Assembly (NCBI RefSeq): GCF_900120405.1
Contig: NZ_LT635492.1
Span: 639,478 to 703,477 of the forward strand
Source: Urinicoccus massiliensis
GTDB lineage: Bacteria; Bacillota; Clostridia; Tissierellales; Peptoniphilaceae
DNA length: 64,000 nucleotides
Direction of reading: 5' to 3'
Part shown: positions 1 through 57,206 of the stretch, piece by piece
How positions within the stretch are numbered: position 1 is the first letter of the stretch
How the letters are laid out: every line of letters starts with the position of its first letter
Translations under genes and position numbers: made by a program
The notes under the pieces: generated by a model
Database searches by the model: none
Told to the model about the DNA's origin: nothing
What the model saw: only the letters and a program-made list of their open reading frames with translations

Positions 1-63
1 TTTTATTTTTCTATTCACCTGGATTTTCTTTATTAAAATTTTAAATTTAGAAACCCAATTCTC

Positions 64-387
64 TTAAGCCCCTTTAAAGCCAATAAAAATATAGATGATT
101 AAAAGCATCCCCCCAACAAGGAGCAATGTAGAAATAACCCCCTTGATCATAGCTCCTAGTAGCTTTCTGTTCCATTTTTTTGATAAATCCCTAAGAGCTT
201 CTGCTTCATTTAAGTTTACATCTACATCTTGTTTAGGAAGACATGTCGATTTCATCTGCCTGAACATATCTTCACATCTACTGCATTCAGACAAGTGTTC
301 CTCTACCACTTCTTTACTTTCTTCACTGCATACCCCATCTATATATAGGGGAAGTAGGTCTTCAATAATCTTACATGAAATGTCCAT
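64..387 (-). CDS. zf-HC2 anti-sigma factor, membrane anchored
   Basis: This 107-residue protein should bind and silence the ECF sigma factor encoded just upstream. The N-terminal half has the zinc-binding H-x3-C-x2-C motif HLSECSRC (residues 31-38) and an early Cys5, as in ZAS-type anti-sigma factors. One hydrophobic segment at about residues 78-103 anchors it in the membrane and leaves almost no external sensor domain, so any signal must reach it by another partner or through the membrane. The ATG follows GGAGGG. The gene overlaps the sigma gene by 17 bp, which implies coupled translation. The family call is firm; the signal is unknown. Confidence 0.88.
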   Translation of the reverse strand: MDISCKIIEDLLPLYIDGVCSEESKEVVEEHLSECSRCEDMFRQMKSTCLPKQDVDVNLNEAEALRDLSKKWNRKLLGAMIKGVISTLLLVGGMLLIIYIFIGFKGA

Positions 388-865
388 TATATCCCTCCGT
401 CAACTTATTTTTAGCCCTATAAAACACAACCCTTGCCCAACCATCCGATTTACCAAATAAATCACCAATTTCTTTAAAAGATAAGTCCGCAAAAGCTCTC
501 AGGGTAAATACCTCTTTATATGGTTCTTCTAACTTGTGTAAAAGACCATGTATCTCTAGAATCCCTTCTCTTTTCTCAAGCTCATCTGTAAAATCTATCT
601 CCCATGTCAAATACTCACAGTTGCCATCAATAGGGAGATTTTTCTCTTCCTTTTTGTAAAAATCATATAGGGTATTTTTTGCAATTTGACATAGCCAAGT
701 ATATATTTTGCAATCCCCCTTAAATGTCTCCATTTTCTTTAGGGCCTTGAAAAAGGTTTCTTGAGTGATTTCTTCCGCTATATGCTCGTCACGACTCATG
801 GTTAAAACATATAAATAAACCTTAGAAAAATATTCTTTATAGATCATTTCATAAGTATCTTCCAA
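371..865 (-). CDS. ECF-type RNA polymerase sigma factor
   Basis: Sigma-70 family factor of about 164 residues with only regions 2 and 4. Region 2 is near residues 10-55 (EEITQETFFKALKKM) and the region 4 helix-turn-helix near 120-160 (LSFKEIGDLFGKSDGWARV). It would direct RNA polymerase to a small stress regulon. The start is uncertain: GTG at 874, TTG at 868 or TTG at 865 are all in frame. I prefer 865 because AAGGGAGTGA lies at a normal distance from it. The start of the downstream anti-sigma gene lies within its 3' end. A SigW-like promoter just upstream suggests autoregulation. Confidence 0.9.
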   Translation of the reverse strand: MEDTYEMIYKEYFSKVYLYVLTMSRDEHIAEEITQETFFKALKKMETFKGDCKIYTWLCQIAKNTLYDFYKKEEKNLPIDGNCEYLTWEIDFTDELEKREGILEIHGLLHKLEEPYKEVFTLRAFADLSFKEIGDLFGKSDGWARVVFYRAKNKLTEGYNGHFM

Positions 866-900
866 CAAAATCACTCCCTTCCATCTTTTTCTACCTATTA

Positions 901-926
901 GACGATTGTATATACAAAACGTTACA
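901..926 (-). promoter_or_regulatory. probable ECF-sigma autoregulatory promoter
   Basis: On the minus strand TGTAAC (926-921) is separated by exactly 16 bases from CGTC (904-901). This resembles the SigW-type pattern TGAAAC-N16-CGTA. It lies about 35 bases upstream of the sigma gene start, as expected for a sigma factor that transcribes its own operon. Read by eye only. Confidence 0.5.
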
Positions 927-1060
927 AAAACTTTATATCCTTTTTCTTGATTTCTATAGATTTTACTGACTTATTATGCTTTTATACTTGTCTTTTTCTT
1001 TTATTTTAGCTCAAAACTCTATGGTAAAGAAAAGGATACGTATATTTTATAAGGAAAAAT

Positions 1061-1098
1061 AAACGTTGGCATACAAGGCCCCAACATTTATTATAGAA
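1061..1098. repeat. relic of an ISL3-family right end
   Basis: The stretch contains CCCCAACATTTATTATAGAA, the same 20 bases that form the right terminal repeat of the intact ISL3 element ending at 50985. The inward part (ACGTTGG, spacer, CCAACATTT) can fold as a hairpin, as in the intact copy. No transposase or partner end is nearby, so this is a stranded end or a small non-autonomous derivative. Confidence 0.5.
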
Positions 1099-1130
1099 TG
1101 AACCTCTTATTACAATCATTTAAAAGGTAT

Positions 1131-1162
1131 AAAAAAGACGATATTGCAATCGCATATCGTCT
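1131..1162 (-). terminator. terminator of the GIY-YIG gene
   Basis: On the minus strand AGACGATAT, a nine-base loop and ATATCGTCT are followed by six T residues, starting about 15 bases after the stop codon at 1177. Confidence 0.85.
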
Positions 1163-1176
1163 AGTACCTGTTATTA

Positions 1177-2043
1177 CTACTTCATTTCATTTTCTTCTAA
1201 GTCTTTTAAACTTATACCCTTTTCAGTTTTCCATTGTATTTTCCCATTTGCGTTAGTTCCCAAAACAAAGGCCGCAGCGTAGGATGGACTATTGAATAAA
1301 TAATTTTTGCTTATTCTTCCATCAATAATCTCATTTTTATTTATGCATTCCTTCCTCAGTTCTTTTATTGATTTTGGAATGGCTGTAGAATCTATAGTTT
1401 CTATCATGCTGCCTTTTAATACTACAAAACCTTCATCTGTTCTTTTACATTTTGCCTCTATCAATCTATTTGACTTGCCACTTTTTCTGGAAAGATATAG
1501 TAATAGTTCTTTATCACCATTATTATTTTCACTTGATTCTTTTGGTGTTCTATCAACTATAGGAACAAATAGTTTATACCCTAGTACTCCAAGAACCATT
1601 TTAGAATATTCTATAAAGTCTTCTAACTCAGATTCTTTTTCTTCCGTTACATTGCCAGGGTTTGGATCATTTCCATTTCTGACTTTATATCTATCTACAT
1701 CTATAGCCATGTTAGTGAATTTGTTCTCTAAGTAAGAAATTTCTGTAGGTCCAAATGAGTTATTTTGTGTGGTTAACATTACTGCTTCAGAAAAATAAAA
1801 TTCATTTTTCAGGTGTTCAGCGACCCTATATAAAACTCCCTCACCATTTTTTCTAATTCCTGCTTGACCTATATATACTTCATCATCTCCATCATCATTC
1901 TTGCCAAATAAAAAATATACTCCACTTTGCTTTAAATCTTGCCTGTCTTTGCATTTTTCAAGATATGGTCTTGGAACTTTATAGACTATGCCCGTCCAAT
2001 TTGATAAGGTACACTTTATTCTTCCTGTAACTTCTCCATCCAT
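1177..2043 (-). CDS. GIY-YIG nuclease-family protein with C-terminal DUF4357
   Basis: A 288-residue protein. The GIY-YIG core is visible as GVYFLFG (about residues 41-47) and EVYIGQAG (about 55-62), followed by the conserved Arg/His region RVAEHLKN. The C-terminal ~55 residues (SPSYAAAFVLGTNANGKIQW) match the DUF4357 pattern, an addition common in GIY-YIG proteins of restriction and defence islands. A DNA-cleaving role is inferred from the fold. The ATG at 2043 has no clear ribosome site. It has its own terminator and lies beside a DUF262/HNH gene and restriction-modification debris, so a defence function is plausible but unproven. Confidence 0.82.
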   Translation of the reverse strand: MDGEVTGRIKCTLSNWTGIVYKVPRPYLEKCKDRQDLKQSGVYFLFGKNDDGDDEVYIGQAGIRKNGEGVLYRVAEHLKNEFYFSEAVMLTTQNNSFGPTEISYLENKFTNMAIDVDRYKVRNGNDPNPGNVTEEKESELEDFIEYSKMVLGVLGYKLFVPIVDRTPKESSENNNGDKELLLYLSRKSGKSNRLIEAKCKRTDEGFVVLKGSMIETIDSTAIPKSIKELRKECINKNEIIDGRISKNYLFNSPSYAAAFVLGTNANGKIQWKTEKGISLKDLEENEMK

Positions 2044-2675
2044 TAAAAAAGATTGAAATTTTTACTGCTTTTCATCATAAGTACTCCATACATTAAATGG
2101 TTAAATATATTATACCCTTTTAAAATATTTTTATTTGTATTTTTTAAATAAAAAAGCCTGATTGACTTTTAACTTAGAAATTACGCTGTCCCCATAAAGT
2201 TGTACCTATTTCATTAAAGCTTACTCTGATGTTTTTTGTCACTTCCTCCCCTCTAGGTGCGTAAAAGCTTTACCCTACATTTCTCTTTCTGCATTTTACT
2301 AGTATAAATTTCTTAATTTTCTTTATTCATTATAATACTTTATAAACTCTTTAATTGTCTATTCTAAGTACTCATGTGAATAAAATTTATTTCCGTATTC
2401 TCCGTTTAATCAGTAAACTAGATTCTATTGAACTATACCTATAATCCAATCCACCACATGGAATGTCGCTTGAAGTCCATGCACAGTATTATTGGAAAAT
2501 TAGATTCTCTTGCTCCTCTGGATAAATTTGACCCTAGCCTTTAGAATTTAATGCTAAGTAAGATGAGCGTAAATGAGGATGAAAGTTTTGAATTTAAATA
2601 TACTAAAGATTTATAAAAATAACCCCTTATGAAAATAAAATTCCACCAGGAGTTATTTTTTAATTAGTTATTTAC
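2044..2675. other. gene-poor debris between the GIY-YIG and DUF262 genes
   Basis: No intact gene is visible here. It contains a 66-bp fragment of the relQ-like gene (2429-2494). That fragment continues in frame for about fifteen unrelated codons to a stop near 2541, and a second short open stretch ends near 2617. The rest is A+T-rich and unassigned. Confidence 0.6.
2429..2494 (+). pseudogene. 66-bp exact internal fragment of the relQ-like synthetase gene
   Basis: These 66 bases are identical to 5962-6027 inside the small alarmone synthetase gene (codons about 71-92, including NPIHHMECRLKSMHS). Flanking bases do not match on either side. The fragment has no start codon or catalytic part and cannot be functional. 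The lack of any mismatch points to a recent copy from this same chromosome. Its G+C content contrasts with its A+T-rich surroundings. Confidence 0.9.
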
Positions 2676-4430
2676 TTAAAGTAATATTTGACATAGTTTG
2701 TTTTTTAAAAGTTCTCTTCTCTCTTCAATAAATTTAGGGTAGTTTTCATAAGTATATTCCATATTAGGTAGATAGTTAATGTTCCTATAATTAAATTTAC
2801 CATCTTCTGTTGGTTGATGAGAATTGAACCATTTATCAAAATCTGTATCAAGTTTTTCTTCATTTAGTTGAGCAGCTAATAACTGAAGATTTGTAATATC
2901 ATTAACAGAATTAATGTATTCATCAAGTTTATTTTCTGATACACCTTGTTTTTTTAGATAGCTTCTTTTAAATTTGCTCTTTGGATAGATATGATCAATA
3001 TGGAACTTATTGTTAAAATCTAATGAAGGATATAGCAACATTAGGGTAGATAAGGTATCACTTTTTCCATATCTCAAATTCAATAAAAACTCATTTATAT
3101 CATCTTCAGTGAATAGAATGGATTTATTTGTTCCCTTAAATCTTTCTTGTATTTTTTCAATAGGAAATTCATTGTTAGAGTTTTCTTTTATAATTTCTCT
3201 AATTGGTCTTAATACATTGTCTGGTTGACCACTAAATACTTTTTTAAGAAGTGATGAAATAAGCCACTTCTTAATTTTCTCTTTGTCACTTCTATTATTT
3301 CCTGAATCAATAAAATTATCTGGATTCCCAATTATCATAAGGTAATAGGCTATTGGGATTAATGCATTATTAGAAGATAATGTCTCTCCCGAATATCCAA
3401 AGGAAGATACCAGTAAGACCGCCTGTCTAATAGATTTCTTTATAATCTTCCATTTACTTTCTATATCTTCCATATTCTTTTTATTAAAATTATCAACTTT
3501 AAATGCTATATCTGATAAATCGCTTAATACTAAGGCAGATTTTAGAACAAAGTCTTTATTAATTCTAAATCCATCGCCCATTTCATTTACTTCATTAACA
3601 AAGTCTATGATTTCTTCCCTAGCATCATGATTGTCCCACTGAGCAGATGCAATGGACAAAAGTAGGTCTGAGTAACTTAGTTTTGTCCCACCACTATTAA
3701 CCCTTATAAAGATATTTAAAACTTTATCCAATTCTGTAGAATCTTCTTTGTAGTAGCTTATCGTTCCAGCCTTGTTTATTATATTATAAAGTTTAGACAG
3801 AGCATTGATTGCAAACCTTGATTGCTCCTTTGTATATGAAAAATCTTCAGAAAAACTTATATTATCATTAACATAAAGAGAAACATCGCCATCTTCAGTC
3901 ATATCTAATATTTTACCAACTTCAAACCAATAGTTGTCTTGATCATTTTCAACTTCGTTTTCAGGTAAAAATTTAAAATTATATTTATTATTACTGTTTT
4001 TTGGCTTTCCTAGCAAATTTAAATATAATTTTCTAGTTGGATATGCATTCGGATTCGTTCTTGATGCATATTTACGTTTATAAGCATAAGTTCCTTTAAG
4101 ACCTAAGTAAATCGAAGTTAATCTTTGTTGACCATCTAAAACGGCAATTACTCCATCTGAGCCTTTTAAATCCACCTTTTCATTGTGCTTATTTTTAACC
4201 TCATGGTAATTTTTCATAAAGGCATAAAAATCATAGTCTGTTACATGCTCTTTATTTATTTGCCAAAATAAAAATGTCCCAATTGGATACTCTCTCATCA
4301 AAGAGTCAAATAGTGTTTCAATTTGTTCGGCATCCCATACATATTCACGCTGTATAGATGGCAATACATATCGATTGGATGAAATATCCTTAATTACCTT
4401 TGCTATAGTGAGTGGTGTTTGATAAGCCAT
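2676..4430 (-). CDS. DUF262 / HNH (GmrSD-like) protein
   Basis: A 584-residue protein with the two-part layout of GmrSD-type modification-dependent restriction proteins. The N-terminal DUF262 domain has the ParB/sulfiredoxin-like motif VLDGQQRLTSIY (about residues 97-108) and IRVNSGGTKL further on. The C-terminal DUF1524-like HNH nuclease region contains FHIDHIYPKSKF (about 470) with NLQLL downstream. The family uses a nucleotide-dependent switch to cut modified foreign DNA. The start was moved to 4430 because GGAGGAG sits just upstream of the ATG beginning MAYQTPL; the longer frame adds eight residues without support. No partner gene is obvious, so it probably acts alone as a fused GmrSD-like enzyme. 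Confidence 0.85.
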   Translation of the reverse strand: MAYQTPLTIAKVIKDISSNRYVLPSIQREYVWDAEQIETLFDSLMREYPIGTFLFWQINKEHVTDYDFYAFMKNYHEVKNKHNEKVDLKGSDGVIAVLDGQQRLTSIYLGLKGTYAYKRKYASRTNPNAYPTRKLYLNLLGKPKNSNNKYNFKFLPENEVENDQDNYWFEVGKILDMTEDGDVSLYVNDNISFSEDFSYTKEQSRFAINALSKLYNIINKAGTISYYKEDSTELDKVLNIFIRVNSGGTKLSYSDLLLSIASAQWDNHDAREEIIDFVNEVNEMGDGFRINKDFVLKSALVLSDLSDIAFKVDNFNKKNMEDIESKWKIIKKSIRQAVLLVSSFGYSGETLSSNNALIPIAYYLMIIGNPDNFIDSGNNRSDKEKIKKWLISSLLKKVFSGQPDNVLRPIREIIKENSNNEFPIEKIQERFKGTNKSILFTEDDINEFLLNLRYGKSDTLSTLMLLYPSLDFNNKFHIDHIYPKSKFKRSYLKKQGVSENKLDEYINSVNDITNLQLLAAQLNEEKLDTDFDKWFNSHQPTEDGKFNYRNINYLPNMEYTYENYPKFIEERRELLKNKLCQILL

Positions 4431-4639
4431 TGTTCTCCTCCAAATGTTTTGCACTGAGTTAAATTACTTTATTGTGCTCTATATATACCCTCGTATATCA
4501 TTAAATACTCCAATATAAAAATCATTAAAAGGTCTCCATTTAAACTTTATATTCTGTGTACATGAGATGCGATTCTAAAAAAACTAGCAATAAAAAGACC
4601 TCTTCTTAGTGGTCTGTAAAACTACCCGGCATCTACGTT

Positions 4640-4740
4640 TTAGTAGAAGCGGTCAATGAGGTTTTCAAAGATGTAGCCCATCTTGATGGGGTCAAAGTGG
4701 TCTTCGGACAGGTCTAGTTCGGAAAAGGCCTTGACTCATG
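4640..4740 (-). pseudogene. scar of a type I restriction methylase gene (hsdM)
   Basis: Reading minus from 4735, the frame gives VKAFSELDLSED then HFDPIKMGYIFENLIDRFY and a stop at 4642-4640. This is the conserved HsdM N-terminal block preceding the methylase core (xPIKMGYIFENLIRRF in the family). A perfect GGAGGAAG ribosome site and ATG lie immediately upstream (ATG at 4740-4738), but that ATG is in a different frame. A start region has therefore been joined to an internal piece by deletion. The methylase core, hsdS and hsdR are absent here. Confidence 0.72.
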
Positions 4741-4937
4741 TAACTTCCTCCTTTTTATTCAAAACTTTAAAATTTTCACTCTATTAAATCTTATTATAGC
4801 ATTGATTTGGCCTTAAATAAACGTTTCTAGGTTCTTGCTCTTTATTTAATTTCTAAAGTCTTAAAAGGGTTATTTGCTGGGGTGAACTTGAGTATTCACT
4901 GGTCATCACAAGAGCTCTTAATTCTTATAGGACCAAA

Positions 4938-4983
4938 AAAAGGCTGCTAGCAGAATGATCATGCCATTTGCTAGCAGCCTTTT
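4938..4983 (-). terminator. strong terminator of the lipoprotein gene
   Basis: AAAGGCTGCTAGCA and its exact complement TGCTAGCAGCCTTT flank an 18-base loop, followed on the minus strand by a T run, directly after the stop codon at 4992. Confidence 0.93.
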
Positions 4984-4991
4984 ACTTGTCC

Positions 4992-5498
4992 TTAGAGGTC
5001 AAAGACCTGGCTGGGATTTTCAATATAGGAAATCTTTTGGCCAATGGTGGCCCTGAGGACATGCTGGGTTTCCTGGTCCCCCTTCTTAGTAACAAAGACC
5101 AGGTCGTAGCTGTCATCATCTGGGTCCACTCTTTTAACAGAAACCAGGTCCACCTGGTCCAGGCTCTTCTCTCTTAGGGGGAAGTAGGGGTAGTCCCCAT
5201 TGGCCACCATCCTATCCAGGGCCTCTTGGGTCATGACTTCCTTAAAGGGGTCATAGAGGGCGGGCAGGTCTTGGTCGGCTTCTTGGCTTAGGTCTCCATC
5301 CAGGCTAAGGACCTGGCCTGCCTGGCTAAGGTCTTTTTCCAACTGCTGCCAGTCCTCTTCCTTAAAGTCCAGCTGGGCCAGGTAGACCTGGGCAAAGTCT
5401 TGGGCCAGGGCTTGGGCTGGGTCTTGGGTTTTTTTGGGGCCACAGGCCACCAGGGTCAGGGCCAGACCGAATAAGGTAAAGATAGCTATTCTTTTCAT
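4992..5498 (-). CDS. small secreted lipoprotein of unknown function
   Basis: A 168-residue protein with a lipoprotein signal peptide: a basic start (MKR), a hydrophobic core and a lipobox ending LTLVAC at residue 19, followed by GPKK. The mature part is acidic, rich in Gln, Asp and Ala, and predicted mostly helical in its first half. I recognise no domain. ATG at 5498 is chosen over an upstream one because GGGAGGAAT precedes it at normal spacing and the signal peptide begins there. It is monocistronic, with a strong terminator. Its base composition matches the core chromosome, so it is a resident gene. Confidence 0.8.
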   Translation of the reverse strand: MKRIAIFTLFGLALTLVACGPKKTQDPAQALAQDFAQVYLAQLDFKEEDWQQLEKDLSQAGQVLSLDGDLSQEADQDLPALYDPFKEVMTQEALDRMVANGDYPYFPLREKSLDQVDLVSVKRVDPDDDSYDLVFVTKKGDQETQHVLRATIGQKISYIENPSQVFDL

Positions 5499-5750
5499 AA
5501 GATTCCTCCCTTGTTTCACTTGTTACAAGTTATAATATGGGCTTTCTCTCTTTTCTTGTCCTTCTAGTATTTACCAAGTCCATTTTCTAGGCCCACTTAA
5601 ACCGGCTGGGCCTTGCTTGTCTAGCTTCACTTTCTTAATAATCATTATAGCATTAATTTTTACCTTAATTAAAGGCAAGTCCTAAATTTTATTTCCTGAC
5701 TAAATCCCCCATCCTTTGGGTATCAATACTAGGCAAAGGAGAGGATAGAA

Positions 5751-6491
5751 TTGATCTTATACCGCAACACCAACTTGTCCATTGACGAATTAAAGGACCG
5801 TTTGGAAAACCAGGCTCTTTTTGACCCGGACTCCAGTCAATCCTTGGATACCAAGGAGCTTTTAAGCAATGTGACGGGCTGGTTTGAAACCCAACAACTC
5901 TACAATGGTGCCTTGAAGGAAATCAGCACCAAGTTGGAAATTCTGGACGAAGAATTTCAAATGAACTATACCTATAATCCAATCCACCACATGGAATGTC
6001 GCTTGAAGTCCATGCACAGTATTATTGAAAAGATGAACCGGCTCCATATTCAAAAGACCATCCCTTCCATGCGGGAACATATTACGGATATTTCGGGGAT
6101 TCGGGTGATTTGTCGCTATCTACATGATGTCTACATTATCGAAAAAATGCTCTTGGCCCAAGACGATGTGACCTTTATCCGGCGGAGGGACTATATCCAA
6201 GAGCCCAAGGAGTCGGGCTACCGCAGTCTCCACCTCCTGGTTAAGGTGCCAGTTTTCTTGTCTAAACGCAAGGAGTCTGTCCCGGTGGAAATCCAGCTCA
6301 GGACGATTCCCATGGACTATTGGGCCAGTCTGGAACACGACCTCCAATACAAGAACACCAAGAAGGACAAGGAAATCCACCACAAGGAGCTCAAGACCTG
6401 TGCCCGAAAGTTGGCGGAAATTGAAGAAACTATGCAGGGGATCCACCGGGATACGGTGGACTTGGAAAATTTTTCTCTCCCCCTGTCTTAA
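5751..6491 (+). CDS. relQ: small alarmone synthetase (RelQ/YjbM-like GTP pyrophosphokinase)
   Basis: A 246-residue stand-alone ppGpp/pppGpp synthetase with no hydrolase, TGS or ACT domain. It transfers pyrophosphate from ATP to GTP or GDP. The RelA/SpoT synthetase motifs are present: HHMECRLKSMHSIIEKM (79-95), SGIRVICRYLHDVY (115-128), ESGYRSLHLLV (154-164, with the G-loop Tyr that stacks the guanine), and EIQLRTIPMDYWASLEHDLQY (180-200) with its catalytic Glu. The start is TTG at 5751 behind AAAGGAGAGG. It is followed by a bidirectional hairpin. A 66-bp exact copy of codons 71-92 lies at 2429-2494. The symbol is by similarity; RelP cannot be excluded. Confidence 0.92.
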   Translation: MILYRNTNLSIDELKDRLENQALFDPDSSQSLDTKELLSNVTGWFETQQLYNGALKEISTKLEILDEEFQMNYTYNPIHHMECRLKSMHSIIEKMNRLHIQKTIPSMREHITDISGIRVICRYLHDVYIIEKMLLAQDDVTFIRRRDYIQEPKESGYRSLHLLVKVPVFLSKRKESVPVEIQLRTIPMDYWASLEHDLQYKNTKKDKEIHHKELKTCARKLAEIEETMQGIHRDTVDLENFSLPLS

Positions 6492-6520
6492 TTTGACTTG
6501 GCCTGGTGGCCTGTCTTTAG

Positions 6521-6560
6521 AAAAACCGGCAGAAGGTCCTCTTCCCTCCTGCCGGTTTTT
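6521..6560. terminator. bidirectional terminator after relQ
   Basis: AAAAACCGGCAG and CTGCCGGTTTTT form a 12-bp stem around a short loop, with T runs on both strands. Confidence 0.93.
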
Positions 6561-6581
6561 GTATCTTTTATCTTTAAGCAA

Positions 6582-6605
6582 AAAGAACCCCGTTTGGGGT
6601 TCTTT
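6582..6605 (-). terminator. terminator of hpf
   Basis: AAAGAACCCC-GTTT-GGGGTTCTTT, located just after the hpf stop codon on the minus strand; U tail supplied by TTTTTGC. Confidence 0.9.
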
Positions 6606-6617
6606 GTCTATTTGCTC

Positions 6618-7163
6618 TTATTGGGGTCTATGGCTGATAATCCGGCCGTAGTTGCCGTCTTTTCTCCGATAAACTACGCAAACTTCGTCTTGGTCTGTAT
6701 CCAGGTAGACGAAAAAGTTGTGGTTTAAGAGGTCCATTTGTAGGATGGCTTCGTCTATAGCCATGGGTCTTAGGTCGAAGTCCTTGTTCCGAATCAATTG
6801 GCCGTCGGGGCTTTCTTCATCCACTGGGGCTTTTTCTTGGTCGAAGTTTTCAAACCGAATGCTGTTGTTGTTTTGGTATCTTTTCTTTAATTTTGTCTTA
6901 TACTTACGAACTTGTCTTTCCAAGGCTTGGACGGCAATATCTATGGATGCGTACATATCATCAGTGCTTTCTTCTGCCCGGAGAATGTGGCCAGGTAAAA
7001 AGACGGTAATTTCTACCTTGTGGTGGCCTTTTTTGGTGGAAAAGGTAACCTTGGCCCGAATTTCTTCTTGGAAGTACCGGTCTAATTTAGATAGTTTTTT
7101 TTCAGCCTGTTCCTTCAAAGCGTCGGTTAATTCTAAATTCTTACCTAAAAATTCAAGTTTCAT
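6618..7163 (-). CDS. hpf: ribosome hibernation promoting factor, long form
   Basis: A 181-residue long-form HPF that binds the 30S decoding centre and promotes 100S dimer formation in stationary phase. The N-terminal S30AE domain spans about residues 1-100 (MKLEFLGKNLELTDALKEQA, then KVEITVFLPGHILRAEES). A charged linker follows, and the C-terminal dimerisation domain covers about 125-181 (FVYLDTDQDEVCVVYRRKDG, NYGRIISHR). ATG at 7163 is preferred over an upstream in-frame ATG because AGAGGAG precedes it and the family starts there. It faces the alarmone synthetase gene tail-to-tail, both genes serving growth arrest. Confidence 0.95.
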   Translation of the reverse strand: MKLEFLGKNLELTDALKEQAEKKLSKLDRYFQEEIRAKVTFSTKKGHHKVEITVFLPGHILRAEESTDDMYASIDIAVQALERQVRKYKTKLKKRYQNNNSIRFENFDQEKAPVDEESPDGQLIRNKDFDLRPMAIDEAILQMDLLNHNFFVYLDTDQDEVCVVYRRKDGNYGRIISHRPQ

Positions 7164-7242
7164 ATAAAGCACTCCTCTCTGTGCTTTATATATACCCAAA
7201 CTTATTTTTTTTAACTGATTTTTTACTTTGTTTTGAGAAGAA

Positions 7243-8190
7243 TTGTCAGACCTCTTAAGGTTTGCTATACTTATCTTGGTGATTTATTTTATGAAAATTT
7301 GGCGGGTCCGTATTGGTATGCGGACATTTAAAACGGCCCTTTCGGTGGTGATTGGTCTCTACTTCTCCCACCTCTTAAATTTACAGGCTCCTATTTTTAC
7401 GGCCATTGCCTCTATTACAACCATGCAGCCTTCTTTTACGGATACTTCAGAGCAGGTCAAGCGTCGGCTTTTTACCTGTGTTTTTGGTGTCATTTTCGGC
7501 TATCTCTTGGCCCAGATAACCCATAATCCTCTCTTCACTCCTATCCTGGCCGGGATTGGCGTGATTTTTACCATTGTCCTCCACCAGCTGACGGGACAAA
7601 AGAATATGACGACCCTGGCCTGTATCGTCTTTGTGGCTTCTTTTGCCACCCGGACCAACCACATGACTTACGGAATCAACCGCTTGATTGGTACCTTTTT
7701 GGGGGTGGCCATTAGTGTCTTGATCAATGTCTTGATCCGGGCTCCCAAGGTCCACGAGGACTTTTTCCAAAGTGTTCAAGAGGCCTACCGGGAAATTTTT
7801 GACCTGACCCGGAACTGTCTCCTCCTGCCCTATCCCTCGGACTTGTCCCATCTGGAGGCGGCCATTAACAAGGTCAACAACTACTACCACATGTTGGACG
7901 AAGAAATCCACTCGCCCTTTTATTCGGGCAAGGACTTTAAGATCCCCCACGCCATTATTGAGGTGATTAATGAAATCTACCTGCGTTTTCAGCTTTTGGA
8001 GGAGTTAAAGCCCTTTACACCGACGATTTTCGGGAAGAATATCGAAACCATTGAAAGTCTCTTTTCCTACACCATCCTCTACCAGGGGGACCTGAAAAGG
8101 GAGGAGGCTATTGTCTACAACTACCATATTGAGGTGATTTTAAAGGATGTCTTCCGCTTGAAAAATTTTGTGGAGGAAAATTCTCTTTAA
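7243..8190 (+). CDS. aromatic acid exporter (ArAE_1/FUSC-like) family membrane protein
   Basis: Membrane protein of up to 315 residues. The N-terminal half has about five or six hydrophobic segments beginning with the family signature IGMRTFKTALSVVIGLYFS and including TAIASITTMQPSFTDT. The C-terminal ~150 residues are cytosolic and helical. Members are proposed efflux proteins for aromatic acids, but the substrate is not known here. The start is uncertain: TTG at 7243 follows a weak GAGAAG, while the ATG at 7291 (MKIWRVRIGMRT) fits the usual family start but has no clear ribosome site. Confidence 0.78.
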   Translation: MSDLLRFAILILVIYFMKIWRVRIGMRTFKTALSVVIGLYFSHLLNLQAPIFTAIASITTMQPSFTDTSEQVKRRLFTCVFGVIFGYLLAQITHNPLFTPILAGIGVIFTIVLHQLTGQKNMTTLACIVFVASFATRTNHMTYGINRLIGTFLGVAISVLINVLIRAPKVHEDFFQSVQEAYREIFDLTRNCLLLPYPSDLSHLEAAINKVNNYYHMLDEEIHSPFYSGKDFKIPHAIIEVINEIYLRFQLLEELKPFTPTIFGKNIETIESLFSYTILYQGDLKREEAIVYNYHIEVILKDVFRLKNFVEENSL

Positions 8191-8210
8191 GGTCTTTTAC
8201 CTGCAAAGGA

Positions 8211-8234
8211 AAGAGTGGCCCTGGGGCCACCCTT
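8211..8234. terminator. convergent terminator
   Basis: GTGGCCC-TG-GGGCCAC with A-rich and T-rich flanks serves both the exporter-like gene (plus) and the histidine kinase gene (minus). Confidence 0.88.
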
Positions 8235-8243
8235 TTTCTATTT

Positions 8244-9464
8244 CTATTCCTTATTTAATTCTATAAAGACTTGGAAGTAGTCGCCGTCAATGACGATGCG
8301 GAATTCGCCACCCAGGGCTTCTACCAGGTTTTTGGCTATATGGAGACCCAGGCCGGACCCTTCTGTGGTCCGGGACTTTTCTCCCCGGACGAATTGTTGC
8401 ATGAGTTCATCGGCAGAAATTCCCAGGCGGTTCTTGCTGACATTTTTCATGGAAAAATAGTACTTGGATTGGTCCTGGATGAGTTTGGCGTAGATTCTTG
8501 TATTTTCCAGGGCATACTTACAGGCATTGGACAGGGTGTTGGACAGGATCCGGCCCAGGACTTCGGGGTCGGTGTAGATTTGGGCATAGTCGCTGTCGGA
8601 ATTGTAGATAAATTCCAGGCCCTTGGCTGTAAGGTCGGATTCAAAGTCTCCAAAGATCTGGCTTAAAAGTTCGTTGAAGTCAATGACGACTTTTTCCACC
8701 TGGACATTGCCGGACCCAGTTTTTGAGGCATCAATGAGGTTGATAACCAGGCTCTTTAGGCGTTCGGAGTTGCGACCCAGGATCCGGATGTAGTTTTTGG
8801 CTTCTTCGTCCATGGTCTCCTTGCTACTTAGGATGTCGGTGTAGTTGATGATGGAGGTCAGGGGGGTTTTCAGGTCGTGGGAGATGTTGGTAATGAGGTC
8901 GGTCTTCATTTTTTCCGACTTCATCCTTTCTTCTACGGCATCGGATAGGCCGTCCCGGATGTTGCCCAGTTGGACCAGGGCCTTGATGCTTGCCTTTTCG
9001 GCCAGGTGGGTTTCCATTTGGGGCATCCCCAGGCTGGCAGTTTCTTCAATCCCCTCAATGACCAGGACAAATTGGACTCTTTCTTTTTCGAAAAACAGGA
9101 GGGCCCGAAAGACCAGGGACAGGACCAGGGTGAAGGTCTCTCCCAGGACGAAGAGGCCCAGGAGGAGGATAAAGAGCAGGAGGATATTAGCCGCGGCATA
9201 GTAGATAAAGGAATTGGACTTGGAACTTTCCCGCATGAGGGCCACGGTGAAAAAGCGTCGGACCCCGGGAATGGGTAGGAGTTTTACCAGGCAAAGGCCC
9301 AGGTCCACCAGGACCAGGTTGATATATACCCAGTCATCCCAATAAAAAATCCGGGCCAGGGCGTAAATCAAGAGAAAGAATTCTATAAAGACTTCTTCGA
9401 TATAGGCCCGGTAAAAGATATAGTCATAGATTTTAGAAAACAATCGCCTAAGTTTTTTTACCAT
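8244..9464 (-). CDS. sensor histidine kinase, membrane bound
   Basis: A 406-residue kinase. Hydrophobic segments at about residues 25-61 and 86-126 form a compact membrane sensor with little external loop, so it may sense the membrane or a partner. The HisKA box is NISHDLKTPLTSIINYTDIL with phospho-His196. The ATPase lobe has the N box SNTLSNACKYA and G box GSGLGLHIAKNLVEALGG near the C terminus. The start is one base after the response-regulator stop codon, so the pair is one operon. The membrane segments without an extracytoplasmic domain resemble intramembrane-sensing kinases of cell-envelope stress systems, but the signal is not known. Confidence 0.92.
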   Translation of the reverse strand: MVKKLRRLFSKIYDYIFYRAYIEEVFIEFFLLIYALARIFYWDDWVYINLVLVDLGLCLVKLLPIPGVRRFFTVALMRESSKSNSFIYYAAANILLLFILLLGLFVLGETFTLVLSLVFRALLFFEKERVQFVLVIEGIEETASLGMPQMETHLAEKASIKALVQLGNIRDGLSDAVEERMKSEKMKTDLITNISHDLKTPLTSIINYTDILSSKETMDEEAKNYIRILGRNSERLKSLVINLIDASKTGSGNVQVEKVVIDFNELLSQIFGDFESDLTAKGLEFIYNSDSDYAQIYTDPEVLGRILSNTLSNACKYALENTRIYAKLIQDQSKYYFSMKNVSKNRLGISADELMQQFVRGEKSRTTEGSGLGLHIAKNLVEALGGEFRIVIDGDYFQVFIELNKE

Positions 9465-40437: not shown

Positions 40438-40463
40438 ATAAGGGGAACATGAATTCCCCTTAT
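40438..40463 (-). terminator. hairpin between Tp34 and DUF2318 genes
   Basis: Minus strand ATAAGGGGAA-TTCATG-TTCCCCTTAT. There is no T run after it, so it may stabilise the upstream message or partially attenuate the downstream genes. Confidence 0.55.
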
Positions 40464-40486
40464 AAATATTATAAATTTTTAAAACT

Positions 40487-41152
40487 TTACCATTGTGGTC
40501 CGTTCCATTCGAAGTCAGTCCATTCTGCAACAAGTGGTTCTGTCCAGAATCTACCTGTTACACCAGTTTCTTTATCTACGTGTAGTAAGTAGTCATTGCC
40601 TGGTGCAGTAACTTCAAATTTTACATCATAAACGCCAACACCTTCGTCAAATTTAACATTTGCACCATAGTGTGGACCATCAGATGCGTTCATTGGCATG
40701 AAAGAAACTTCTTGAACATGATCTGAACCTTTCTTTTGTAAATAAGCTTTTACTTTTAACCATGGAACAAAATCACCAACACCATAACCTAATGTTGAAC
40801 CTTCTTGTGATGCTGTAATGTCAGCTTCAATATGGCAGTCAGCTTCTTCTTTAGGAATTGAGTTCCCTGCTGGTTCCATATCAACTGGTTGGAAATATAC
40901 ACCGGAGATTACTAAAGGTCCTTTAGTTTGGTCATCGCCAATTGGAAATTCTTCAAATCCTGCATCTTCTCCTGGAGCTGCAGCTTTTGCATCTCCTGCT
41001 TCTTTCTTGTTTCCTTCAGCTGGTGCTTTTTCTTCTGTAGAAGTTTTAGCTGTATTATTAGCTTTTGTATCTTCTTTTTTACCACAAGCTGTAAACATTA
41101 ATGCACACACAAGCGTCATAACAACAAGAAGTAAACTTTTCTTTTTTAACAT
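40487..41152 (-). CDS. Tp34/P19-family iron-binding lipoprotein, second copy
   Basis: A 221-residue lipoprotein identical to the one at 41513. Signal peptide with lipobox LMFTAC (Cys22), an Ala/Lys/Glu-rich linker (about 25-60), then the Iron_transp (P19/Tp34) beta-sandwich. The metal ligands of P19 have counterparts: His and Glu in DCHIEADI, Met in SFMPMNAS, His in GPHYGA and His in YLLHVDK. These proteins bind iron and copper and feed FTR1 permeases. A tandem-duplication product; it now lies next to the DUF2318 gene, keeping the operon order and doubling gene dose. Confidence 0.93.
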   Translation of the reverse strand: MLKKKSLLLVVMTLVCALMFTACGKKEDTKANNTAKTSTEEKAPAEGNKKEAGDAKAAAPGEDAGFEEFPIGDDQTKGPLVISGVYFQPVDMEPAGNSIPKEEADCHIEADITASQEGSTLGYGVGDFVPWLKVKAYLQKKGSDHVQEVSFMPMNASDGPHYGANVKFDEGVGVYDVKFEVTAPGNDYLLHVDKETGVTGRFWTEPLVAEWTDFEWNGPQW

Positions 41153-41161
41153 AATACCCTC

Positions 41162-41486
41162 CTATTTTTTTTCTTGGCTGGTTTCAAGCTCAGCTCTAAT
41201 TTTTTTGTTTCTATTATTTTGATAGATAACAGAAACAATGGTTACTACTAATAGAATAATTTGTGGGATAAGATTTTCATACCTATCGTATATTCCTATA
41301 GCTTCAGCAGACCATCCATTCATCCAAGGAACTATAGTTCTGCCAATTACATCTGCTTCTTGTAATTCTCCTATGCCCTTTCCTAAGAGAGACAAGCAAA
41401 GTATAAACATTAGCCAAGAAGTAAATGTAAAGAATGGTTTTAATGGTAGCCTTACAGAAACTTTAGCAATTAAATAATATACAATT
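41162..41486 (-). pseudogene. 3' fragment of the FTR1 permease gene
   Basis: Repeats the last ~105 codons of the gene at 42188. It has no start signal and lacks both REGxE motifs, so it cannot make a working permease. It was created by the tandem duplication. Three substitutions separate it from the parent. Confidence 0.93.
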
Positions 41487-41512
41487 TATAAATATTATAA
41501 ATTTTTAAAACT

Positions 41513-42178
41513 TTACCATTGTGGTCCGTTCCATTCGAAGTCAGTCCATTCTGCAACAAGTGGTTCTGTCCAGAATCTACCTGTTACACCAGTTTCTTTA
41601 TCTACGTGTAGTAAGTAGTCATTGCCTGGTGCAGTAACTTCAAATTTTACATCATAAACGCCAACACCTTCGTCAAATTTAACATTTGCACCATAGTGTG
41701 GACCATCAGATGCGTTCATTGGCATGAAAGAAACTTCTTGAACATGATCTGAACCTTTCTTTTGTAAATAAGCTTTTACTTTTAACCATGGAACAAAATC
41801 ACCAACACCATAACCTAATGTTGAACCTTCTTGTGATGCTGTAATGTCAGCTTCAATATGGCAGTCAGCTTCTTCTTTAGGAATTGAGTTCCCTGCTGGT
41901 TCCATATCAACTGGTTGGAAATATACACCGGAGATTACTAAAGGTCCTTTAGTTTGGTCATCGCCAATTGGAAATTCTTCAAATCCTGCATCTTCTCCTG
42001 GAGCTGCAGCTTTTGCATCTCCTGCTTCTTTCTTGTTTCCTTCAGCTGGTGCTTTTTCTTCTGTAGAAGTTTTAGCTGTATTATTAGCTTTTGTATCTTC
42101 TTTTTTACCACAAGCTGTAAACATTAATGCACACACAAGCGTCATAACAACAAGAAGTAAACTTTTCTTTTTTAACAT
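41513..42178 (-). CDS. Tp34/P19-family iron-binding lipoprotein
   Basis: A 221-residue lipoprotein, the ancestral copy directly after the intact FTR1 gene (nine-base gap, AGGAGGGTAT before the ATG). The order FTR1 then P19-like protein matches bacterial P19/FTR1 iron-uptake operons. Lipobox Cys22; metal-site candidates His and Glu of DCHIEADI, Met of SFMPM, His of GPHYG and His of LLHVD. It would capture iron on the outer membrane face and hand it to the permease. Identical to the copy at 40487. Confidence 0.95.
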   Translation of the reverse strand: MLKKKSLLLVVMTLVCALMFTACGKKEDTKANNTAKTSTEEKAPAEGNKKEAGDAKAAAPGEDAGFEEFPIGDDQTKGPLVISGVYFQPVDMEPAGNSIPKEEADCHIEADITASQEGSTLGYGVGDFVPWLKVKAYLQKKGSDHVQEVSFMPMNASDGPHYGANVKFDEGVGVYDVKFEVTAPGNDYLLHVDKETGVTGRFWTEPLVAEWTDFEWNGPQW

Positions 42179-46036: not shown

Positions 46037-46048
46037 ACATACCCCTAA

Positions 46049-46130
46049 AAATTAAACTGGGATTCATAACAAACCCCAGTTTCATAATTAGCGTGTTCTT
46101 TAATATAATTTTGATCCTGCTGGAATATTA
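46049..46130 (-). repeat. lysS 3' end/terminator direct repeat, distal copy
   Basis: ATTAAACTGGGATTCATAAC, CCCCAGTTTCATAATTAGCG and TTTTGATCCTGCTGGAAT match 57128-57206 almost base for base, including about 50 bp of non-coding terminator. The two copies bracket about 11 kb of mobile-element DNA. Confidence 0.9.
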
Positions 46131-57118: not shown

Positions 57119-57127
57119 AATTATAAA

Positions 57128-57206
57128 ATTAAACTGGGATTCATAACAAACCCCAGTTTCATAATTAGCGTGTTCTTTTAATAAATTTTTGATCCTGCTG
57201 GAATGG
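57128..57206 (-). repeat. lysS 3' end/terminator direct repeat, proximal copy
   Basis: Same ~75 bp as at 46049-46130: terminator stem AAACTGGG...CCCAGTTT (57131-57159), spacer TTCATAATTAGCGTGTTCTT and the last lysS codons GATCCTGCTGGAAT. The non-coding part is A+T-rich, unlike the gene it terminates. Confidence 0.9.

Follow-up and report, generated by a model that had tools for sequence, protein, structure and literature searches.

Short-patch double illegitimate recombination (SPDIR) is characterised by microhomology at the joints and by independence from RecA, and it was reportedly demonstrated experimentally in Acinetobacter baylyi by Harms et al. in PNAS in 2016. PMC7192050 names it as a bacterial process, and the reference sections of PMC7192050 and PMC8116780 list the title of the Harms et al. 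2016 SPDIR paper (PNAS 113:15066, doi 10.1073/pnas.1615819114). Short copied insertions have also been ascribed to polymerase template switching at microhomology, under the name of microhomology-mediated break-induced replication (PMC8421209, in part); the templated insertions treated in that part of the source come from human disease and cancer, and the bacterial enzymes would differ. Bacteria are further described as carrying out illegitimate recombination that depends on short homology and joins DNA over homology too short for RecA (sections of PMC2884548), but the cases in these sections involve replication slippage between nearby repeats, whereas the locus described below probably holds the insertion of a distant copy.

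This locus is a 66-bp patch in the genome of Urinicoccus massiliensis that repeats part of a relQ-type gene located 3.5 kb away. As in SPDIR, a short DNA segment of intragenomic origin is found at a chromosomal site with which it shares no relationship; the patch is identical to another site in the same genome and ends abruptly in non-homologous flanks. Unlike SPDIR, which was reportedly established by experiment in Acinetobacter baylyi, the patch is natural, and it may or may not have replaced resident DNA.

Results

Identity and rarity of the patch

We analysed a stretch of 64,000 nucleotides, hereafter called the window, to which all positions refer unless a contig is named. The features of relevance to the patch are, from left to right:

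1177-2043, minus strand: DUF4357 / candidate GIY-YIG gene, the left neighbour (PF14267, E 3.9e-13; PADLOC PDC-S14, E 9.4e-104)
2180-2397, minus strand: decayed 3' end of a transposase gene (67-79% DNA identity, 16 sites; boundaries approximate)
2404-2429, plus strand: stretch resembling the start of the recombinase relic (19/26 with 2486-2511, ungapped, same frame)
2429-2494, plus strand: the patch, 66 bp, an exact copy of relQ codons 71-92 on the same strand as relQ
2489-2616, plus strand: C-terminal part of a large serine recombinase whose 5' side breaks off at the patch (in-frame stop; 68-73% protein identity)
2615-2660, minus strand: terminator-like hairpin separating the patch from the GmrSD stop (folding compared with shuffles)
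2676-4454, minus strand: GmrSD-type (DUF262) gene, the right neighbour (PF03235, E 3e-35; PADLOC HEC-05, E 7.8e-229)
5751-6491, plus strand: relQ-type small alarmone synthetase gene (PF04607, E 7.5e-32; open reading frame intact)
5962-6027, plus strand: source stretch within relQ, in the relQ reading frame, residues 71-92

A previous sequence-only reading of this DNA had stated that bases 2429-2494 equal 5962-6027, that they encode residues 71-92 of a RelQ-like enzyme, and that the sequence on both sides is unrelated. We can confirm each of these statements. The two stretches agree at 66 of 66 positions, in direct comparison as well as in the form of repeat family D9, and the copied segment is in frame within a gene that Pfam identifies as a RelA/SpoT-type synthetase (PF04607). 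Its protein product shares 78% identity, over residues 1-243, with that of G001/SIT11, a member of the same genus and the nearest relative compared. Immediately outside the repeated segment the two sites have little in common, with 9 of 30 bases the same on the left and 12 of 30 on the right. Across the whole genome (2,087,160 bases in 13 contigs, rated 98.98% complete), the 66-mer occurs at these two sites only, and a chance repeat is ruled out by its length and by the 66/66 identity.

The screen for isolated repeats covered 860,000 positions on contig C12, including 551 N, and thus about 41% of the genome. With words of more than six copies left out, 16 isolated exact pairs of at least 32 bp were obtained; a second screen, from which words of more than three copies and near pairs were left out, gave 11 pairs of at least 24 bp. 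The 16 pairs of the first screen consist of three tRNA-gene pairs, confirmed as such by ARAGORN, three palindromes, two tandem or low-complexity repeats, three long repeats (770 and 348 bp), four short pairs of 42-69 bp, and the patch itself. Among four pairs inspected closely (25, 28, 42 and 57 bp), none showed non-coding DNA harbouring a sharply bounded fragment of a convincing protein gene. Within the screened 860 kb, the patch is a single case and not part of a swarm.

Other repeats were observed in the same contig. An exact 42-bp pair at C12:318268 and C12:346798 (L031, L033) lies outside open reading frames of at least 100 aa, has unrelated flanks and is perhaps a shared piece of regulatory RNA. 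The window contains an exact 54-bp pair (46048-46101 and 57125-57178), about 11 kb apart and within longer similar stretches, as well as an exact 300-bp direct repeat (40460-40759 and 41486-41785) at a distance of 1026 bp; positions 1015-1112 belong to a dispersed repeat of about 100 bp, with stretches of 74-76% identity at nine other sites of the contig. The genome also harbours two CRISPR arrays with different repeat types, L084 at 4871-6520 (25 copies) and L085 at 7606-8582 (15 copies), near two Cas1 matches.

Flanks and joints

On its left side, the patch is preceded by the remains of a transposase gene, which we take to have belonged to an IS3-type element and which we regard as a relic because its frames are interrupted by stops. 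The 16 sites matched by this stretch are distributed over 12 other genomes among the 130 searched; 13 of the 16 matches stop exactly at position 2397, and the match overlaps a transposase-like open reading frame in one of these genomes (G006, L004). Extension of the relic over 2398-2428 performed no better than shuffles (p 0.41), and a plasmid search with 2200-2680 returned no matches. On the right side, the recombinase piece finds its counterparts in 4 of 129 other genomes of the family, one of which (L079) carries Resolvase, Recombinase and zinc-ribbon domains across two adjacent open reading frames; plasmids searched with a 40-residue piece of the recombinase gave no matches.

The recombinase relic overlaps the patch by six shared bases, TTATTG (2489-2494). 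At this right joint, ATTATTG in relQ stands against TTTATTG in the recombinase gene of genome G169, so that TTATTG is common to both; the other three of the four recombinase homologues do not have it. The left joint offers a common TG at most. The examination of both joints for microhomology that the sequence-only reading had recommended gave a candidate on the right, with one homologue in four, and at best two bases on the left. It is probable, judging from these alignments, that the short shared sequence TTATTG guided the right joint. A pre-event site without the patch was found neither among 101 genomes searched with 2300-2680 nor among the 130 genomes of the flank searches; the event may therefore have been an insertion or a replacement, and it is from the sequences of relatives that we infer the use of microhomology at the joint.

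Directly to the left of the patch, 2404-2429 resembles the start of the recombinase relic, at a level of identity for which we found no equal in the surroundings: none of the control stretches drawn from this region, about 4,500 in number, reached 18 matches, the resemblance having been noticed before it was tested. A first test, on a 12-bp core, had given 0.018. Compared with the four recombinase homologues, the same stretch scored 17, 17, 16 and 14 matches, no better than shuffles, which against L076 had a mean of 16.1 and attained at least 17 in 115 of 400 cases. An assignment of 2404-2429 as recombinase-like sequence is at most suggestive on the strength of these comparisons. The flanking repeat differs at 7 of 26 positions, whereas the patch differs at 0 of 66 (Fisher p 7.5e-5); for the 16-bp core of the repeat alone, the count is 2 of 16 (p 0.036). 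As a single event of switching out and back would leave an identical duplication, these figures fit such a model poorly. In our view, the flanking repeat predates the patch or is a product of chance; alternatively, the patch has been re-copied from relQ since.

Age and genomic setting

While the patch shows 0 differences in 66 positions to its own relQ, it differs from the relQ of G001 at 14 of 66, with 10 of the 14 differences at third codon positions, which places the copying, or a later re-copying, after the separation of the two lineages. When 101 genomes were searched with 2300-2680, the only match to the patch outside its own genome was the relQ gene of G001 itself, and a scan of the viral_contigs set for the exact 66-mer gave no match. 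The drifted copy in distant species that, in the sequence-only reading, would have spoken for an old relic was not encountered, and we rejected an old shared relic because the patch was not seen outside relQ in these 101 genomes. From its sequence, the patch looks recent and younger than its decayed surroundings.

The patch resides on an island between purA and relQ. In its own genome, purA (C12:629258-630511) and the start of relQ (C12:645228) are separated by about 14.7 kb, compared to about 110 bp in G001; the island is absent from G001, the one relative compared at this junction. Its genes encode VWA and AAA proteins, a RhuM family protein, DUF1836, DegV proteins, a DUF1016/YhcG nuclease and a sigma factor with a zinc-finger partner, and further include the DUF4357 gene, the GmrSD gene and a lipoprotein-like gene. 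Candidate defence genes of the island (window 1-5750 and L047 10512-20000) were assigned by PADLOC to PDC-S02, PDC-S05, PDC-S14 and HEC-05.

The patch had been placed between a GIY-YIG and a DUF262/HNH gene. For the latter, DUF262 is upheld by PF03235, and PF07510 scores 21.7 bits, slightly below the cut-off of 23; for the former, Pfam gave DUF4357 alone, the GIY-YIG motif was read by eye, and PDC-S14, the family to which this gene was assigned, is a PADLOC candidate family. Beyond the GmrSD gene, a short broken reading frame on the minus strand (4600-4741) is reminiscent, on inspection by eye, of the N-terminus of a type I restriction methyltransferase; a 29-residue piece from it had no Pfam match.

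Folding and transcription

The minus strand of 2600-2670 folds with -20.9 kcal/mol (z -5.41), a value that 0 of 200 shuffles matched, compared to z -1.76 for the plus strand. A terminator scan whose rule demands loops of 3-8 bases listed none at 2615-2660. The patch itself folds unremarkably (z -0.13 and -0.74), window 1-8000 had no Rfam match at the gathering threshold, and the 101 genomes provided no sign that the patch is conserved as an element.

Discussion

Based on these results, we consider the patch to be, probably, a mutational scar that arose by the templated (ectopic) insertion of a short patch copied from within the same genome. In this scenario, a segment of relQ would have been copied, presumably from a DNA template, over a distance of 3.5 kb into decayed mobile-element debris on the same chromosome. 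The route may have been a template switch or SPDIR, neither of which would call for a dedicated enzyme, and the right joint would have been guided by the TTATTG that relQ shares with the recombinase. The exactness of the copy, its abrupt ends, the truncated relics at or near both sides (at about 2397 and about 2489) and the lack of drift support such a scar. As for the machinery, a search for Ku (PF02735) gave 0 matches in the genome, and among 14 control genomes Bacillus subtilis matched; with no Ku gene found, dedicated non-homologous end joining is unlikely, and we rejected Ku-dependent end joining on this basis. The sequence-only reading had put forward a template-switch or break-repair patch left behind when the island was inserted or rearranged. 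The first half of this proposal is now the best supported, owing to the relics, the probable microhomology at the right joint and an age below that of the surroundings; the patch may or may not date from the insertion of the island.

Close to the templated-insertion scenario, and set apart from it by a simultaneous deletion, is a double-strand break between the relics that was sealed by Ku-independent end joining and captured the 66 bp as filler. The patch indeed sits between two truncated mobile-gene relics, like filler at a deletion joint. However, given that no Ku gene was found, just the rarer end-joining routes remain; moreover, the relics are decayed but the patch is not, and truncation in the same event is without support, so that we regard this variant as rather unlikely. 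The identity of patch and source could also reflect an older patch that gene conversion has kept identical to relQ, with an origin that overlaps the one we prefer. Such a history would let the imperfect 19/26 flanking repeat stem from the same event, and 66 bp is above the 30-bp threshold given for RecA-dependent recombination in E. coli in sections of PMC2884548; yet a recent copy is simpler, and we deem conversion improbable. Still less credence can be given to an RNA-templated patch, for which the relQ mRNA would have been copied by one of the cell's own reverse transcriptases and then inserted. The two reverse-transcriptase genes in the genome make an RNA template possible, though not needed, but the patch bears no signature of an RNA route and copying from DNA needs fewer steps.

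Since exact repeats invite misjoining and the patch is known from the assembly alone, an assembly or library artefact has to be considered as well. A misjoin at the 66-mer would swap the flanks, however, whereas relQ is intact, the order of relQ, hpf and the next genes is that of G001, and the patch lies well within a contig of 865,400 bp; an artefact would come as a considerable surprise. A similarly small chance attaches to the patch being a functional element that acts on relQ as an antisense RNA or decoy, as the sequence-only reading had contemplated. With GmrSD on the minus strand, read-through would yield 66 nt antisense to the relQ mRNA, but the strong minus-strand hairpin (z -5.41) stands ahead of the patch and argues against such read-through, promoter-like sites number 3 as opposed to 4.8 expected from shuffles, and the patch has an ordinary fold, no Rfam match and no counterpart in relatives. 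The readings to which we attach the very least weight are the duplication of an attachment site and a CRISPR-like acquisition. Direct repeats do frame a 3.5-kb segment, with the recombinase relic adjoining one of them, but an attachment site would leave relQ sequence outside the left copy, of which the flanks show none (9/30 and 12/30 identical); we rejected site-specific duplication because there is no split target gene and no relQ sequence beside 2429-2494. Acquisition as a spacer, also raised from the sequence alone, might find encouragement in the two Cas1 matches and the two arrays, whose repeat-plus-spacer period of 66-70 bp is a coincidence of length. Here too, the evidence points the other way: the patch consists of nothing but relQ coding sequence, no array repeats flank it, and the arrays L084 and L085 have other repeats, unlike the patch flanks.

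A patch that originated as a scar could still have come under selection, be it as a phase-variable switch in which recombination with relQ excises 3.5 kb, or through antisense RNA from GmrSD read-through, but we see hardly any likelihood of this. If the switch existed, GmrSD and the first 70 relQ codons would be lost, and restriction and alarmone synthesis would disappear together; in the unlikely event of selection, a restriction-type defence gene would be tied to alarmone synthesis. We conclude instead that the patch is presumably without function.

As a probable templated insertion, the patch adds a further case to a class of mutation that is already known. It is a clean footprint, left by nature in an anaerobic Firmicute, of the copying of a short patch within one genome, with source, patch and both neighbours readable on one contig. 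Scars of this kind can be misread as spacers, as attachment sites or as antisense elements with a regulatory role. They also create direct repeats and may thereby cause later deletions; in the present case, the two direct copies might recombine, with the loss of 3.5 kb that include GmrSD and the 5' part of relQ.
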